64,000 bases of DNA, taken from positions 4,224,501-4,288,500 of the forward strand of contig SMSO01000034.1 of assembly GCA_004764695.1 (NCBI GenBank), in the 5' to 3' direction. The notes beneath the pieces were generated by a model that was not told the origin of the DNA, did not search any database, and was given only the letters and a program-made list of their open reading frames with translations. Position 1 is the first letter of the stretch, and the number at the start of each line of letters is the position of its first letter. Below are positions 18,201 through 40,177 of this stretch, piece by piece. The position numbers and the translations under genes are program-made. The DNA comes from Schizochytrium sp. TIO01 (lineage: Eukaryota > Sar > Bigyra > Thraustochytrida > Thraustochytriidae).

Positions 18201-20963
18201 TTACTTCTCTGTAAGTTCACGGAAACCCTTCCATGATTTAGGAGCCTCAAAATCGTATTGCTCCATAACCCCAAGCAGAGATACGGACGGTCCATCTTCT
18301 GGCTTTTCAAGCAAGACAGACTCCAACATACGCCGAGAAGATGCCCAATCGCCAGAAAGATATGCTGAAACAGCTTCGCCAAATTTGGCCAAGAAGCCAT
18401 CTGGAAGGGTACTTTGAATGAACTCCATCTCCGGGCCGTCAAAGTCAAAGGGAAGACGTCTTGGCTTGGGACCTGAGTTGTCAAATTTGGGCTCGCCAAA
18501 TTCTTCTGGGAAGTTAACAACATCACAAGTAAACAATCCCATTGGTTGAATACTACCTTTGACTGTGACTCGATCAATTTTACGGCATCTCTTACGAGCT
18601 TTGGCGGAGAGAGCATCGTAAAAGTCTTCAGAAAGGAGTAAAGGCGTACGGAACTGTTTTGTAGCGGCCTCCAGACGGGATGCCATATTAACATTTGGAC
18701 TGAGGTAGGATGCATCAATTTTGTAGTGACTTCCAATAGCACCTTCGATAGCCCAGCCAATATGAAGACCCATTCCCAAGCGAATTTCAAAGTTGTTCTC
18801 ACCAAAGCGCTTGCGAATAGCAGGATGATCCTTGTAATCATGAAGGCAACCACCAGCTGCGTTCTCTCTCTTGAGATCAATCATGGATTTCAAAAATGCA
18901 ATCAAAGCATTATCAGACATGTTTCCACCATCATAGGTGACGTGGCGCTTACCATCATTCACCTTCCAGACTAACAAGAACGCATCACCGATATTTTTGT
19001 TTGCAGCACCATACCAGACATGGGTAGCCTCATGAACAATTGCACCCACCCGGTTAACGTAAACCATGACCTTTTCTTGCAGGCATTCGGTTGTATCAGT
19101 AAAATTGCGAATATCACAGAAACCAAACACAGCCTCCATCTTTACACCATCACACATAGGCTCGATGCCAGCATTGTTAGACATGTTCTTTGCAATGATC
19201 TCGCTACCTGCTTCACCAAAACCAATCTGTAAGAGCTGACCAATCTTTGCGATCGTGTTCTGAAGAAGAACAGTTTCATCATCGTCGTCATGCTTAGTAG
19301 CTACCTGAAGATTGCTGCTTCCCATGGGGTTCTCAGCAAGTTGCTGAACGCTACGGACCATTCTCTCAATCGGGCGAATGACGAGCTGTTCAGCGTCAGC
19401 AGAGATCATGAGAGAACCAAAGGTAAGAACACACATTACAAAGATCGTCTGGATGATGTTAAGACCAGCCGAGAGTCTAGCATCTGATTTGACATCAAAA
19501 TATGCATATGAGCTGCAATTAGTCACATAAGGATCGAGATAATCGCCCTCAACATTATAACATTCAACGGCATAAGATGCCTCATACTCGGTTTCGCGGA
19601 ATTTATCCCTCAGAGAATCAACATCATCAAAGATGTTTGTAAGTGGGGTGTAATCCTCGTCATTTGTAGTCATGTGCTCCCCATCTTCCGTGGGCCACCA
19701 CGTGGCTTTGGCTGTATCAATCAGAGTCTGGTGTTCAGCACTTGTTTCGCCATACAGAGAAAAAAAGATCAGCCTTCCACCCTCAATACCACTGGTGTAT
19801 TGATGAATTTCTTCCTCGAGACCATACGTCTCCATGAAAGATGTAAGAGAGACGTTTTCAGCGTGTTGCTTGTAACGTTGGAACTGGAGATGCAATCTGT
19901 ATAGACCATAGGTTCCATGCGGAGATTCAGAGACCCACATACCAATGTCAAAAAGCTGTACAAAAATCAACATTGACAAAACAACAGTGATAACTCGTTG
20001 CATTGTCTTTTCGCTGAGCTTTTTTCCAACCAAAGACGGATTCTCTTCAGCAGCAACCTCGTTGTTGTCACGATTGGATACTTTGTACAGCTTTACGACT
20101 CGGACAAGACGAACAAGACGAACGATACGTACAATGCGGGATGATTTTGTGCCTACGCGACTAGCCTGAATTGCGTCTATGGCCTCTTGGCTGTTCGCTG
20201 TAGTGCCACCTGCGAGAACGGCTTCAAGAAAAGGGTTCCAAATAAACCCAATATCAGAAACCATTGTAACTGTAGCGAGAATATCAAGCCAAAAGTAAAA
20301 GCTACGAAAATAATGTGGCTTTGCAGCAGTAAAGATGATAAGCTCAGTGGTAAAGGCCAGTAACGCAATAAAAGATAGCGAGTAGAAGAAGTTGTCGAAC
20401 TTCTTTGCAAAAAGAGCAATACGCAAATCATCTCCGAAGAGCGCATACACTGTAAGGGTAGAGATAAATGTTGTCCACAGTCTACCCTCTAGGAATAGAT
20501 AGGATCGTAACATGCAGGTCATCGGAGGTGGATTTGGGGATGCCGTGACAGCCTGCTTGGAACGAGATTTGTTGAGGTCATCTTGCGATGTGACTGCGCT
20601 TTCAGAAAGAATGGCTCGGTTGGAGTCCTTTTGCATAAGTTCGCCGGATGCCGGCGTGACCTTGCTAGCACCTGGCATGGTGTCCAAGTCTTGGCGAGAA
20701 CGTGCCCAAACCCCTTCGCGGGAGCCCTTTTCACTGGAGCCCCTTTCGCCGCCCAAGGGGACGACGCGGCTACTAGATTTGCTGACCAGGCCAGAAGTTT
20801 TGAGTGTGGGAAGCTGTTTAACACTGGCTGTCAAACGAATTTCGTCAGATTTAGCGCGGGAGTGTTTAAAGCTGCGCGCGAACGCCAGCTTAGGGGGGGT
20901 GGAGTTCTCTTCCAGTTCTTCTTCTTTACGTATCTTATCCCAGCGAAATTCTTCTTTTTCCAT
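18201..20963 (-). CDS. Class III nucleotidyl cyclase with an ion-channel-like, S4-bearing membrane domain
   Basis: Starts at an ATG and gives 920 residues. Residues 1-155 are a cytosolic Ser/Lys-rich head. Membrane segments follow at about 162-180, 191-213 and 220-243, then an S4-like helix at 274-294 with Arg/Lys every third residue (RIVRIVRLVRLVRVVK). A further segment lies at 322-344, then a loop of about 150 residues with cysteines and NxS/T sites, a last segment at 499-521 and a HAMP-like linker (RPIERMVRSVQQLAENP). The cyclase domain spans about 608-815, with metal aspartates at D617 (FGFCDIRNFT) and D660 (KNIGDAF) and transition-state N759/R763 (NVNMASR). It should make cAMP or cGMP; substrate choice is not decided by the sequence. 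Possible voltage control is inference. Confidence 0.9.
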   Translation of the reverse strand: MEKEEFRWDKIRKEEELEENSTPPKLAFARSFKHSRAKSDEIRLTASVKQLPTLKTSGLVSKSSSRVVPLGGERGSSEKGSREGVWARSRQDLDTMPGASKVTPASGELMQKDSNRAILSESAVTSQDDLNKSRSKQAVTASPNPPPMTCMLRSYLFLEGRLWTTFISTLTVYALFGDDLRIALFAKKFDNFFYSLSFIALLAFTTELIIFTAAKPHYFRSFYFWLDILATVTMVSDIGFIWNPFLEAVLAGGTTANSQEAIDAIQASRVGTKSSRIVRIVRLVRLVRVVKLYKVSNRDNNEVAAEENPSLVGKKLSEKTMQRVITVVLSMLIFVQLFDIGMWVSESPHGTYGLYRLHLQFQRYKQHAENVSLTSFMETYGLEEEIHQYTSGIEGGRLIFFSLYGETSAEHQTLIDTAKATWWPTEDGEHMTTNDEDYTPLTNIFDDVDSLRDKFRETEYEASYAVECYNVEGDYLDPYVTNCSSYAYFDVKSDARLSAGLNIIQTIFVMCVLTFGSLMISADAEQLVIRPIERMVRSVQQLAENPMGSSNLQVATKHDDDDETVLLQNTIAKIGQLLQIGFGEAGSEIIAKNMSNNAGIEPMCDGVKMEAVFGFCDIRNFTDTTECLQEKVMVYVNRVGAIVHEATHVWYGAANKNIGDAFLLVWKVNDGKRHVTYDGGNMSDNALIAFLKSMIDLKRENAAGGCLHDYKDHPAIRKRFGENNFEIRLGMGLHIGWAIEGAIGSHYKIDASYLSPNVNMASRLEAATKQFRTPLLLSEDFYDALSAKARKRCRKIDRVTVKGSIQPMGLFTCDVVNFPEEFGEPKFDNSGPKPRRLPFDFDGPEMEFIQSTLPDGFLAKFGEAVSAYLSGDWASSRRMLESVLLEKPEDGPSVSLLGVMEQYDFEAPKSWKGFRELTEK

Positions 20964-34993: not shown

Positions 34994-36367
34994 TTGTTGT
35001 TTCTCGTGCTTATCCACCAAAGCATGAATTCCCGTGCCTATCTTTGCAAGCTGGGCTTGGTTAAGAGCTACCTCTCTTCACATTCAAGTGATGCTTTTCG
35101 TGCGTAATCCAGGTCAGGGTTTGTGCTGGACCTGTTTGGTATAGGCGCGTCTGTGTGTGTGCAAACCCGTAAACGTGTCACTGCCCACGTCTCCCGCAAT
35201 AGGCCTAGCTTAGGAAATGGAGAGCTCCAGAACGTATGAAGAGGTTCTGGGGTTCTGATTAACGTCTTCGTCTTCTAGGATGTCGTTCGCAATCCAGCTC
35301 AAGGTAAGCGAATTGGAGAAACTGGTTTGCTCATCTGTGCAGTGCCATAATTCTATGTCCCGGTAATGTTAGCATATCTCATAAAAGGTTGCTATATGTG
35401 GTTTCCTCTAACCAAGCTTAAAGCACACAACTATGCAAAAGTATCATACTCGTCCGCCTTGCCATACCGCAATGATACCTTTGCAACTGCATTTAAGAAT
35501 TTAATAATATGTATGGACGGTAGCTGTAGCTAAACAACGTTTCTCAATTAATTCATCAAATACTTGATGTGGACTATTCTTGATTTGTTGAGAGCAACGT
35601 ACCCTCGTTTCTTCACCTCTTCAGTGCTCACTCCTATACTCCTATCGATTTCGCTTTGAACTGGAGTAAATAAATAAGCTAAAAATATTACCCTTTATCA
35701 AGCGCCTAGTATTAGAAGTATTATTCATAGTATCAGTACTAATATTAGTGTTGTTTCTAATATATTTTGTTCATATTAATAGTAATAGGAGTAGTGTATA
35801 TATTTAAAATAAATAAATAAAAAATCAATACAAAACCAAAACTAATGAGTGATTATTTTAGCTCGAGTTTATACCCAAGTTTACAGCAAGATCAATAAGA
35901 GTTGCCTCTGAGAGTGACAAAGTTTGGTTTTCATATTCCAGTACCAGCCTAATAGAATTTTCGACGCTAACTGAAGAATGATTTTGCAGAATGCCCTCTA
36001 TGTAGTTTTACCTTTCAATATGGCATGACGAGCGAGCGAAGAAAATTTATCTTTTCTAGTCTCTTTCTCTCCAACTCAGTGTCCCAAAACTTTAAGCAAA
36101 AGACTTGTTCCATTTCGTTTCAAAAGTTTCTACATAGGTACACCCTAGAGCCTTGTTTTGTTCTATTTTGGAGAAAACTGAGGCTGAGACGCAAAGGAAA
36201 ACCTTTGACTCGAGAATCAATCACCCAAATTAGAAAGAGCTTGCAGTCCTCGATCACGAGAAGGTGCTAGCCGACCAAATCCTCTTGTTCTTCGCGTTGG
36301 CTGTTCTTCGCGTTGGCTTTTAGCAAGTTCCTAGGTGAAGATCTCACTCGCCAATCAGTCTTTGAAG
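34994..36367. other. 1.4-kb spacer with strong splice-site look-alikes, no complete gene
   Basis: Near 35255-35310 a TTAAC plus pyrimidine-rich TCTTCTAG acceptor is followed by a 25-bp segment with ATGTCGTTCGC and then AAG-GTAAGC, a textbook donor. No convincing downstream coding exon was found. The stretch 35690-35850 is very AT-rich. The TEX264-like promoter lies at the right end. Confidence 0.4.
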
Positions 36368-37060
36368 ATGGAGAAGATTGGAGAACGCGTTGAAAATATG
36401 ACGCTCTGGGAAGCGACAGGTATTGCGTGCGCGCTTGGACTTGCAGGAGCTGCAGCTTACGCATGGCGCGTAGGCGTCTTTACAAAAATGAAGCTTGAGA
36501 AAGTAAAACGAGAGCCTATGCTGGTCATGGTGAAGAGTATTCAGTGTAATGTCACGGAACTCGGAAGCAAGTACGAGCATATTATCTCTGATGTGAACAA
36601 GGCTCTGCCTGCTGCTCGTGATGGTCACCTTCCCATTGGAATATACTACGACTCACCTTCGGATCTTGAAGATGCCAATCATCTTCGCGTGGACATTGGT
36701 ATTCTGCTGACAAAGCCAATAGATGAGAACACAATGGAAGAGGCCGCGGCTGAGCTAGGCATGAAGGTGATCACAATTCCAGAGGGTGAGTGGGTCCAGG
36801 GCACGTGGAAATTTGTGAACCAGCTTTCGTTCGCCATTGGCCCAATGAAGTTTTACCCCGGTGCTACCGCGATTGCGAAAAATGAAAGCAAAGTCCATGA
36901 CTCTTGGACTGGTTCACTTGAAATCAACCATATGCACGGCAAGGGCTCCTGCCACCCTTCTTACACTGAATATCTTTATCCACTGTCGCAGGTTGTACAA
37001 ATTACGGACATCCCAGTTCCTCGCCGCAAAAGCGATACTGCCAAGACTAAGAATCAATGA
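36368..37060 (+). CDS. TEX264-like single-pass membrane protein with GyrI-like domain
   Basis: The first ATG is at 36368 (the longer frame begins with GTG), giving 230 residues. An N-terminal membrane anchor (ATGIACALGLAGAAAYAW) is followed by a GyrI-like domain. The core matches TEX264: GIYYDSPSDLEDANHLRVDIG, then AAELGMKVITIPEGEW and a final EIN...YTEYLYPLSQ. In animals TEX264 is an ER-membrane protein that serves as an ER-phagy receptor through an LC3-interacting motif in a long tail. Here the C-terminus ends soon after the domain in a basic tail (PRRKSDTAKTKNQ) with no obvious aromatic-x-x-hydrophobic motif. It may bind ligands or partners but not ATG8 in the same way. Confidence 0.7.
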   Translation: MEKIGERVENMTLWEATGIACALGLAGAAAYAWRVGVFTKMKLEKVKREPMLVMVKSIQCNVTELGSKYEHIISDVNKALPAARDGHLPIGIYYDSPSDLEDANHLRVDIGILLTKPIDENTMEEAAAELGMKVITIPEGEWVQGTWKFVNQLSFAIGPMKFYPGATAIAKNESKVHDSWTGSLEINHMHGKGSCHPSYTEYLYPLSQVVQITDIPVPRRKSDTAKTKNQ

Positions 37061-37360: not shown

Positions 37361-40177
37361 TTATGAGCGGTAGCCAGCGTTAACCTCAACGTAGGTATCA
37401 GTAAGATCAGCACCGTAGACAACAGTCTTGAAGCCAGAGGACTTGGTCGGGTTAAGGTTGATAGTGATATCAACGGTCTTGTAGTGAGCAGGGTAACCGG
37501 CGGCCTTGGGGAGCTGGCAGTCCTCAAGGTACTTGATGAGCTTGACCTCCTTCTCAGAGTCAAGGTCAAACTCACCGTTCTTGAAAACAAGCTCGTCACC
37601 AACATGGATTGTGCAGTTCTCCGCGACAGACTTGGCAAACTCGGGGTTCACCTTGCCAACGTAGGAGCCAATAGCAGCAATGATACGGCCAAGGTTAGGG
37701 TCGTTGCCAGCAATGCCGGTCTTGCAAAGCGGGGAGTTCACAACGCACTTAGCAATACCGTGGGCAAGTTTGGCAGACGGGGCGCCCTCGACAGTGCACT
37801 TCATGACGTGCTCGGTACCCTCGCCGTTGCGAACAACATCCTGGGCAAGGTCAGCACAGACAGCACGGACGGCAGCGGTGAGAGCAGAACGTTCAAAGGA
37901 CTTGTCAAGAGCCGGGCGCTTGCCACTGGAAAGAAGAACAATCGAATCAGAGGTACTCTGGTCAGCATCGACACTGATGCGGTTGAAGGATCCCTCAGCG
38001 TTGACAGCCTCCTTAAGGCAGTCCTGGAGTACCTGGCCTTCAGCGGTGATATCGGTCATCACGTACACAAGCATGGTGGCCATGTTGGGCTCGATCATAC
38101 CAGCACCCTTGGCAATACCAGTCACACGACCGAGCACGGTTCCAGTCGATGGGTCGCGAATGACAGCACTACGAGACTTCGGGAAGGTATCGGTGGTCAT
38201 GATGGCCTTGGCTGCGGGGAGGATAGACTCGGACTGCATCTTCTCCACGGCGCCAGGAAGAGCGTCAATCATGCTCTTCACAGGGAGGCGCCAGCCGATG
38301 ACACCGGTGGAACTGGGCATGACAGCGGCGCCCTCCTGGAGACCGAGGAGCTCAGCGGTACGCTTGCACACAGCCCTGGCGTCGGAGACTCCGCCTGCAC
38401 GAGGGTGCACGTTGGAGATCTTGTTGTTGATAACGAGGGCACCAAGGGGTTCGCGCTTAGAGAGAATCTCGCGGCACACACGGATAGGGGCTCCCGGGAA
38501 GGCGTTCTGTGTGAACATGGCTCCGTACATGGAGGTAGGCTCGTCAGGGCGGATGACTGTCAGCTTCATGGTAGCCGGGTTGGCGCTCTCCGGAAGTTCC
38601 TCCGGCTGGAACTGGAACGAGGTGATACCGACCTGGAATCCCTCAGGAAGCTTTGTGTGCTCAAGGTCAACAAGTTTCTTCTCGTACTCCTCCACAGACT
38701 TAGACGCGAGTTCCAAAGCAGTCGGCATCTCAACCACGAACTTTTTACCTTCTGCGGCAGCATCATCAGCGCCCTGGATCTTGGGAAGAAGTGCCTTGAC
38801 TTCCTCATCAGTGGGTTCAGGGACGCATGTCATGATGGCATCCTCAATTGCCTCCAATGCAATGTCGAGCTCCTCCTTGGAAATCACGAGGGGCGGGCAA
38901 AGACGTACAACCATGCCTGTGTCTCCGGCGCCAAGCACAAGAACATTCTTGTTCAAGCAGTGCTTGATCACGTCCGACACCTTAGGCGAAGGCAGCTGCA
39001 GTCCAGCGTACAGAGCTGCGTCTCCGAGCGGTCTGCGCACGGCGAGCACACGGTTGCCTACACGCTCTTTGATGGCGTCGAGGCCCTTAATCATGTAGCG
39101 TCCATTCTCGGCGACACTCTCAAGGAAGCCGGGCTTAAGAACCTTATCGAGAACGACGTTAGCAGCGCGAGTGGCAACAGGGTTACCTGCGAAGGTGGAG
39201 CCGTGGGTTCCGAGCCACTTAGCGGGCTCAACGGCATCATAGGTCTTTGCTGCGACCATAACGGCTCCGATGGGCAGACCGTTGGCAAGGGGCTTGGCCA
39301 TGGTCATGATATCGGGGACAACACCGTACTCCTCGTAGCCCCAGACGCGTCCGTTACCTTGGCGTCCAAGACCGATCTGAACCTCGTCAAAGATGAGAAG
39401 TACGCCGTGCTCGTCACAGAGCTCGCGTGCACGCTGCAGAAACTCGCGAGATGCTGGTGTGATACCACCTTCACCCTGAACGGGCTCCACGATGACGGCC
39501 ATGACGTCGGAACCGATGGTCTTCTCGAGCTCAGCGATGTTGTTGAACTCAATGTGGTCCACGTTGGGGATCAGGAGTGGCTTAAAAGGCTCACGAATGC
39601 CGGGCTTGTAGGTGACCGAGAGGGCACCGAGGGTGCGACCGTGGAAGGACTGCTTGAAGCCGATCAGGCGGTCGCGAAGGCCCTCGCCGCGGGAGTTCTG
39701 GACAACGCGCGCAAACTTGATAGCACCCTCGTTAGCCTCTGTGCCTGAGTTACAGAAGAAGACCTTGCCCATGCCCGGAGCAGACTTGACAAGCTTCTCA
39801 GCAAGCTCGAGGCTCGGGCGGGTGTGGTAAAGGTTACTGGCGTGAGCCACCTTGCCCATCTGGTCGTTCACGGCAGCCTGGATATCCTTGTCAGCGTGGC
39901 CAAGGACAGTCACGGCAATACCGGCGCCCATATCGACAAATTCGCTACCATCCTCGCCGTAGATGCGGCTTCCGGAGCCCTTCTCGAACACAAGTCCCTC
40001 CTTCATGCGAACACCGCCGGCGGCGTAGGTGGGCATGATGAAGTTCTTCTCAATGTCCTCAGGGGAGCCGGCCAGACCGCGGAGGCTCTGGTACATAGCA
40101 GAAGCCTTGCCACGGCCACGGCCAAGACGAGCTGCCTGCGAGACGGAGGAGGAGTTGGTTGCCAATCTGCGCATCAT
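37361..40177 (-). CDS. Fused acetylornithine aminotransferase / ornithine (glutamate N-) acetyltransferase, mitochondrial
   Basis: The first ATG is at 40177, giving 938 residues. Residues 1-40 (MMRRLATNSSSVSQAARLGR...) are Arg/Ser-rich without acids, as in a mitochondrial presequence. Residues 45-455 are a class III aminotransferase with the PLP lysine K295 (MTMAKPLANG), NSGTEANEGAIKFAR and LIFDEVQIGLGRQG, i.e. ArgD. Residues about 512-938 are ArgJ: STGVIG oxyanion loop (623-628), self-cleavage motif KGAGMIEPNMATML with nucleophile Thr701, GRIIAAIG, and the C-terminal VNAGYRS. ArgD makes N-acetylornithine; ArgJ moves its acetyl group to glutamate, releasing ornithine. The two act consecutively, so a channelling fusion makes sense. 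Codon use is C-ending and strongly biased, suggesting high expression. Confidence 0.93.
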   Translation of the reverse strand: MMRRLATNSSSVSQAARLGRGRGKASAMYQSLRGLAGSPEDIEKNFIMPTYAAGGVRMKEGLVFEKGSGSRIYGEDGSEFVDMGAGIAVTVLGHADKDIQAAVNDQMGKVAHASNLYHTRPSLELAEKLVKSAPGMGKVFFCNSGTEANEGAIKFARVVQNSRGEGLRDRLIGFKQSFHGRTLGALSVTYKPGIREPFKPLLIPNVDHIEFNNIAELEKTIGSDVMAVIVEPVQGEGGITPASREFLQRARELCDEHGVLLIFDEVQIGLGRQGNGRVWGYEEYGVVPDIMTMAKPLANGLPIGAVMVAAKTYDAVEPAKWLGTHGSTFAGNPVATRAANVVLDKVLKPGFLESVAENGRYMIKGLDAIKERVGNRVLAVRRPLGDAALYAGLQLPSPKVSDVIKHCLNKNVLVLGAGDTGMVVRLCPPLVISKEELDIALEAIEDAIMTCVPEPTDEEVKALLPKIQGADDAAAEGKKFVVEMPTALELASKSVEEYEKKLVDLEHTKLPEGFQVGITSFQFQPEELPESANPATMKLTVIRPDEPTSMYGAMFTQNAFPGAPIRVCREILSKREPLGALVINNKISNVHPRAGGVSDARAVCKRTAELLGLQEGAAVMPSSTGVIGWRLPVKSMIDALPGAVEKMQSESILPAAKAIMTTDTFPKSRSAVIRDPSTGTVLGRVTGIAKGAGMIEPNMATMLVYVMTDITAEGQVLQDCLKEAVNAEGSFNRISVDADQSTSDSIVLLSSGKRPALDKSFERSALTAAVRAVCADLAQDVVRNGEGTEHVMKCTVEGAPSAKLAHGIAKCVVNSPLCKTGIAGNDPNLGRIIAAIGSYVGKVNPEFAKSVAENCTIHVGDELVFKNGEFDLDSEKEVKLIKYLEDCQLPKAAGYPAHYKTVDITINLNPTKSSGFKTVVYGADLTDTYVEVNAGYRS

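Follow-up and report, generated by a model that had tools for sequence, protein, structure and literature searches.

The closest known kind of protein to the one described here is the pathway enzyme fusion Arg5,6 of fungi, in which a kinase and a reductase acting at consecutive steps of the ornithine acetyl cycle share one polypeptide. Processing splits the Arg5,6 chain between the two enzymes. The enzymes of the next two steps, ArgD and ArgJ, are known as free proteins, and both are commonly dimers. A preliminary description of the present locus proposed that these two enzymes are fused, an architecture not known to have been described. In agreement with this, no description of an ArgD–ArgJ fusion was found in the open full-text literature searched; an unremarked database listing is possible. 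The term ‘argDJ’ is used in one paper, on the metabolic engineering of a methanotroph (PMC6570963).

A single frame for two enzymes

A genuine ArgD–ArgJ fusion within a single reading frame is confirmed at the level of sequence. The gene is encoded by the minus strand of the window (the whole 64,000-nucleotide stretch that was analysed of the DNA of Schizochytrium sp. TIO01, a marine protist; Table 1). It begins with ATG ATG CGC at 40177 and is open and intron-free throughout its 938 codons, down to the stop that ends at 37361. Pfam finds exactly two domains in the 938-residue protein, each as one stretch with near-full profile coverage: Aminotran_3 (PF00202, 1.7e-101), followed by ArgJ (PF01960, profile positions 15-377, at residues 538-938, 8.8e-100). 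Alignment extends the ArgJ homology back to approximately residue 484. The uninterrupted frame of the preliminary description is thus borne out, as are its complete aminotransferase and complete ornithine acetyltransferase, with full domains and catalytic motifs in each. Its residue numbers for the PLP lysine (Lys295) and the nucleophile (Thr701) are also correct. The large open reading frames that face it on the other strand, of 754 and 472 amino acids, are mirror images.

Table 1. Features of the fused gene, in positions of the window.
Feature	Position	Strand	Basis
Whole fused gene, 938 codons and stop, single exon	37361..40177	-	Frame and Pfam domains
Presequence-like N-terminus, residues 1-37	40067..40177	-	Composition (7 basic, 0 acidic)
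ArgD (Aminotran_3) domain, residues 62-448	38834..39994	-	Pfam; best solved relative T. maritima AcOAT 2ord/2e54
Lys295, aligned with the PLP lysine (TMAKPLANG / TTAKGLGGG)	39293..39295	-	Alignment
Linker, residues 449-483, coding	38729..38833	-	Codon statistics; model
Complete ArgJ half, residues 484-938	37364..38728	-	Alignment, Pfam and tree
Thr624-Gly625, STG motif of the oxyanion hole	38303..38308	-	Alignment
Ala700/Thr701, predicted self-cleavage site and nucleophile (NMA/TML)	38075..38080	-	Aligned chain ends of solved ArgJ

Two other frames of the window may be recorded here. On the plus strand, a frame at 36335-37060 converges on the fused gene, with 300 bases between the ends of the two; its GyrI-like match is weak (1.8e-6). 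Further away (18201-20963, minus strand), a 920-residue frame joins an Ion_trans domain (161-301) to a nucleotide cyclase domain (615-804). This ion channel–cyclase fusion recalls those of ciliates and apicomplexans.

The junction between the two enzymes had been placed at about 38640-38780. A linker does exist, but its coordinates are slightly different (38833-38729), and it comprises the 35 codons that follow the end of the ArgD alignment (residue 448) and precede the onset of ArgJ homology (~484). With codon statistics learned from eight further long frames of the window, the linker scores 0.54 bits per codon in frame, compared with 0.36 and 0.35 for the two domains and a mean of 0.37 for domain windows. 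The other two frames of the same region score -0.53 and -1.60 and contain 1 and 7 stops, while 102 stretches of equal length from the gene’s non-coding flanks average -0.37 and reach at most 0.20. Because the linker scores as coding, and in its own frame only, it appears to be translated and not to derive from collapsed intergenic DNA. This bears directly on whether the fusion might be an assembly artefact, in which two tandem genes were joined through the loss of a stop or of the DNA between them. Although a single assembly is the source, collapsed intergenic DNA would not give 35 coding-like codons, the linker follows the window’s codon usage when read in frame but not when read in the other frames, and the frame is open over all 938 codons. 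An artefact of this kind is consequently extremely improbable.

Met484 aligns near the start of free spirochaete ArgJ proteins, and the ArgJ half therefore resembles a whole former gene. The closeness of the two starts, together with the context GTTGAGATGC, which has G at -3, also fits a genomic fusion in which translation additionally or mainly begins at Met484, so that free ArgJ is made as well as the fused protein. However, the resulting ArgJ would have no preceding targeting sequence, and the linker immediately before Met484 has a coding signal as strong as that of the domains and is hence translated, so that such a start is unlikely to be used. The fused protein carries the presequence-like N-terminus that had been claimed for it, as judged by composition only; the amphipathic moment of these residues is not exceptional. 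This basic, acid-free composition is the basis on which the fusion protein is considered probably mitochondrial.

The two halves and their relatives

The solved structures closest to the ArgD half are those of Thermotoga maritima acetylornithine aminotransferase (2ord/2e54, 328.7 bits), and the PLP lysine is kept. The half scores 398 bits against the argD profile, compared with 215 for ornithine aminotransferase, 211 for GABA-T, and 220 for BioA. It passes NF002325 (373.5 vs a cut-off of 372) and falls just below the TIGR00707 cut-off (398 vs 410). The difference between the argD and ornithine aminotransferase scores, together with a separate ornithine aminotransferase gene in the genome, indicates that the ArgD half is not an ornithine aminotransferase. 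Its AlphaFold2 model is poor, which probably reflects a thin alignment with few relatives supplied. Bacterial ArgD and ArgJ were aligned to the fusion in a small set, anchored by an Acidobacteria gene pair read through its stop. The linker is modelled as partly helical, with low confidence at 465-478.

The ArgJ half, in contrast, is modelled confidently, and its fold matches that of 1vz6 (TM-score 0.81, normalised by target length). Alignment places the KGAGMIEPNMATML motif in this half, beside STG, TTDxxPK, and the C-terminal asparagine and serine, and GMIEPNMATML, STG, TTDxxPK and the C-terminal N..YRS are common to free bacterial ArgJ. A cleavage site before Thr701 had been suggested, and the motif supports it. 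NMA/TML, with its Thr nucleophile, occupies residues 698-703, and solved chains break at the position aligned with A700/T701: the alpha chains 1vra_A, 3it4_A, 2v4i_A, and 2yep_A end exactly there, and the beta chains 1vra_B and 3it4_B begin exactly there. The predicted cleavage products are ~71 kDa (minus some 37 N-terminal residues) and 25.4 kDa.

Against the NCBIfam equivalog cut-offs, which belong to bacterial models, the ArgJ half scores 336 vs 351 (NF003802) and 275 vs 298 (TIGR00120). Of two relatives from the same clade, an Opitutae ArgJ located beside argB/argD misses both ArgJ cut-offs, while a spirochaete ArgJ passes both. Since the cut-offs are missed, and these relatives are divided between one miss and one pass, the C-terminal half is, on its sequence, a member of the ArgJ family and is not claimed as a bacterial equivalog.

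Among the matches listed, the strongest bacterial ArgJ relatives are from Opitutae and Spirochaetota, with ~42-49% identity in the best segment, starting from approximately residue 486. In a 39-row tree, the ArgJ half lies within an Opitutae/Spirochaetota clade (support 100/100), which a long branch separates from common bacterial ArgJ, and it adjoins Opitutae (support 95/78). In the Verrucomicrobiota and Spirochaetota genomes, ArgJ falls into a common clade and a divergent one, the latter scoring near or below the NCBIfam cut-offs. The divergent-clade ArgJ of Opitutae adjoins argB and argD despite these low scores. Verrucomicrobiota genomes with ArgJ carry mostly the common type (85/94, 411-493 bits) and less often the divergent type (9/94, 340-359 bits); the fusion’s ArgJ scores 334.5-336.8 bits. 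The longest ArgJ-bearing frame has 652 residues in these 94 Verrucomicrobiota genomes and 535 in 45 Spirochaetota genomes, which indicates that none of them contains the fusion.

The nearest bacterial arrangement is found in an Acidobacteria metagenome-assembled genome (L008 1-2303), where argD and argJ occur in the same order and frame, with TAG and 12 bases between them. A 766-residue frame in this genome was rejected as a fusion because the DNA has the TAG between the genes. The pair is also not the direct ancestor of the fusion, as its ArgJ is of the common type. No relative was found among viral contigs. A plasmid collection gave two-piece matches only; the annotated ones are separate genes, and the one that was checked has the order argJ, argD.

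The bacterial affinity of the ArgJ half, seen in a comparison with bacterial sequences, does not prove transfer. Diatoms, which are also stramenopiles, have been reported to lack ornithine transacetylase sequences (PMC3901274). Set beside a divergent-clade ArgJ in a labyrinthulomycete, the report for diatoms raises the question of where the gene originated.

The acetyl cycle in the rest of the genome

Profile searches covered one assembly, of 64.06 Mb in 37 contigs. The 18S primer GGGATCGAAGATGATTAG, known from the labyrinthulomycete literature (PMC9241719, PMC9171235), has 43 exact copies in the genome, compared with 0 for a reversed control. Primer sites are spread over many contigs, many of them near contig ends and several no more than 35 kb from the first base of a contig. 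The genome also encodes a PfaD-type PUFA synthase domain in each of two long frames. These features mark it as labyrinthulomycete, most likely from a thraustochytrid.

Across the 64.06 Mb, PF01960 matches only the fusion. There is likewise no second ArgD-grade enzyme in the genome, where no further class III aminotransferase exceeds 36% identity with the ArgD half. By best score, the others are an ornithine aminotransferase (L003, 594 bits) and BioA-like (L004), GABA-T-like (L002), PRK06148-like (L005), and HemL-like (L006) proteins. These searches also bear on whether one half might be catalytically dead and serve only as a scaffold or regulator. The scores somewhat below equivalog cut-offs would be consistent with this, as would a C-terminus that reads VNAGYRS where relatives have ENADYRS or INADYRT. 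However, the catalytic motifs are intact on both sides, and no other gene of the genome was found that could stand in as ArgJ or as an ArgD-grade enzyme, which makes a dead half very unlikely.

Other enzymes of the pathway are present. An ArgA-type NAGS frame contains kinase and GNAT domains (L093); it was located via the argB model, as Pfam NAT matched nowhere, controls included, and was therefore uninformative. NAGK and AGPR form another fusion (L092 1117-3650; contig C13, ~6460174), with a short NAT-domain remnant between the enzymes. Consequently, one polypeptide contains steps 2-3 of the acetyl cycle and another contains steps 4-5. Ornithine carbamoyltransferase is represented by a match of 364.7 bits. 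ArgE has no match at the equivalog cut-off in the genome; a frame for an M20 peptidase (L088) is a weak candidate.

A probable bifunctional ornithine enzyme and its known counterparts

In all likelihood, the gene encodes a bifunctional ornithine enzyme that is probably mitochondrial and probably self-cleaved into a 71 kDa ArgD–ArgJalpha chain and a 25 kDa beta chain. Catalysis, self-cleavage, and dimerisation are attributed to it by analogy with the established biochemistry of ArgD and ArgJ. In the proposed mechanism, a single nuclear gene would supply both activities of ornithine synthesis. The ArgD half would transaminate N-acetylglutamate semialdehyde with glutamate, giving N-acetylornithine. 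The ArgJ half would then move the acetyl group from N-acetylornithine to another glutamate, which releases ornithine and regenerates N-acetylglutamate for the cycle. The precursor would probably be imported into mitochondria, and the ArgJ half would probably cleave itself between Ala700 and Thr701. The mature enzyme would thus consist of the larger chain and a non-covalently bound ArgJbeta with Thr701 at its N-terminus. As free ArgD and ArgJ both commonly dimerise, a symmetric (alpha'beta)2 particle would be the simplest assembly.

What surely follows from the fusion itself is that the enzymes of steps 4 and 5 are delivered together and in equal dosage; channelling of N-acetylornithine between them is no more than possible. 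A broader proposal is that labyrinthulomycetes run the whole cycle on NAGK–AGPR, ArgD–ArgJ, and NAGS, with the ArgJ of the divergent bacterial type self-cleaving, ArgD remaining tethered to the alpha chain, and N-acetylornithine being passed on directly. In this full form, the proposal is speculative and rather doubtful.

With Arg5,6 already known, the bifunctional enzyme would be a second fusion among the enzymes of the ornithine acetyl cycle. It would also be a natural example of a self-cleaving enzyme with its cleavage site located within a larger fusion. It would offer a ready system for asking whether the joining of ArgD and ArgJ speeds ornithine synthesis, and within labyrinthulomycetes the fused gene might serve as an evolutionary marker.

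Compared with its known counterparts, the protein combines familiar parts in a different arrangement. Like free ArgD (T. maritima AcOAT 2ord, 2e54), it has a complete class III aminotransferase with the PLP lysine, but here a linker and ArgJ come after the aminotransferase. It shares with free ArgJ (GNAT2/OAT; 1vz6, 1vra, 3it4) the fold, the STG oxyanion motif, the A/T self-cleavage site, and the C-terminal N..Y. Unlike free ArgJ, it would carry ArgD covalently on the alpha chain, and it belongs to the divergent Opitutae/Spirochaetota clade. The Acidobacteria pair has the same gene order and frame, 12 bases apart, but is parted by a TAG stop and includes an ArgJ of the common type. Arg5,6 likewise places two consecutive acetyl-cycle enzymes on one polypeptide, and in the present case the frame is open and no free copies were found in the genome. 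However, Arg5,6 covers steps 2-3, whereas ArgD–ArgJ covers steps 4-5, and cleavage of ArgD–ArgJ is expected inside the second enzyme and not between the two.
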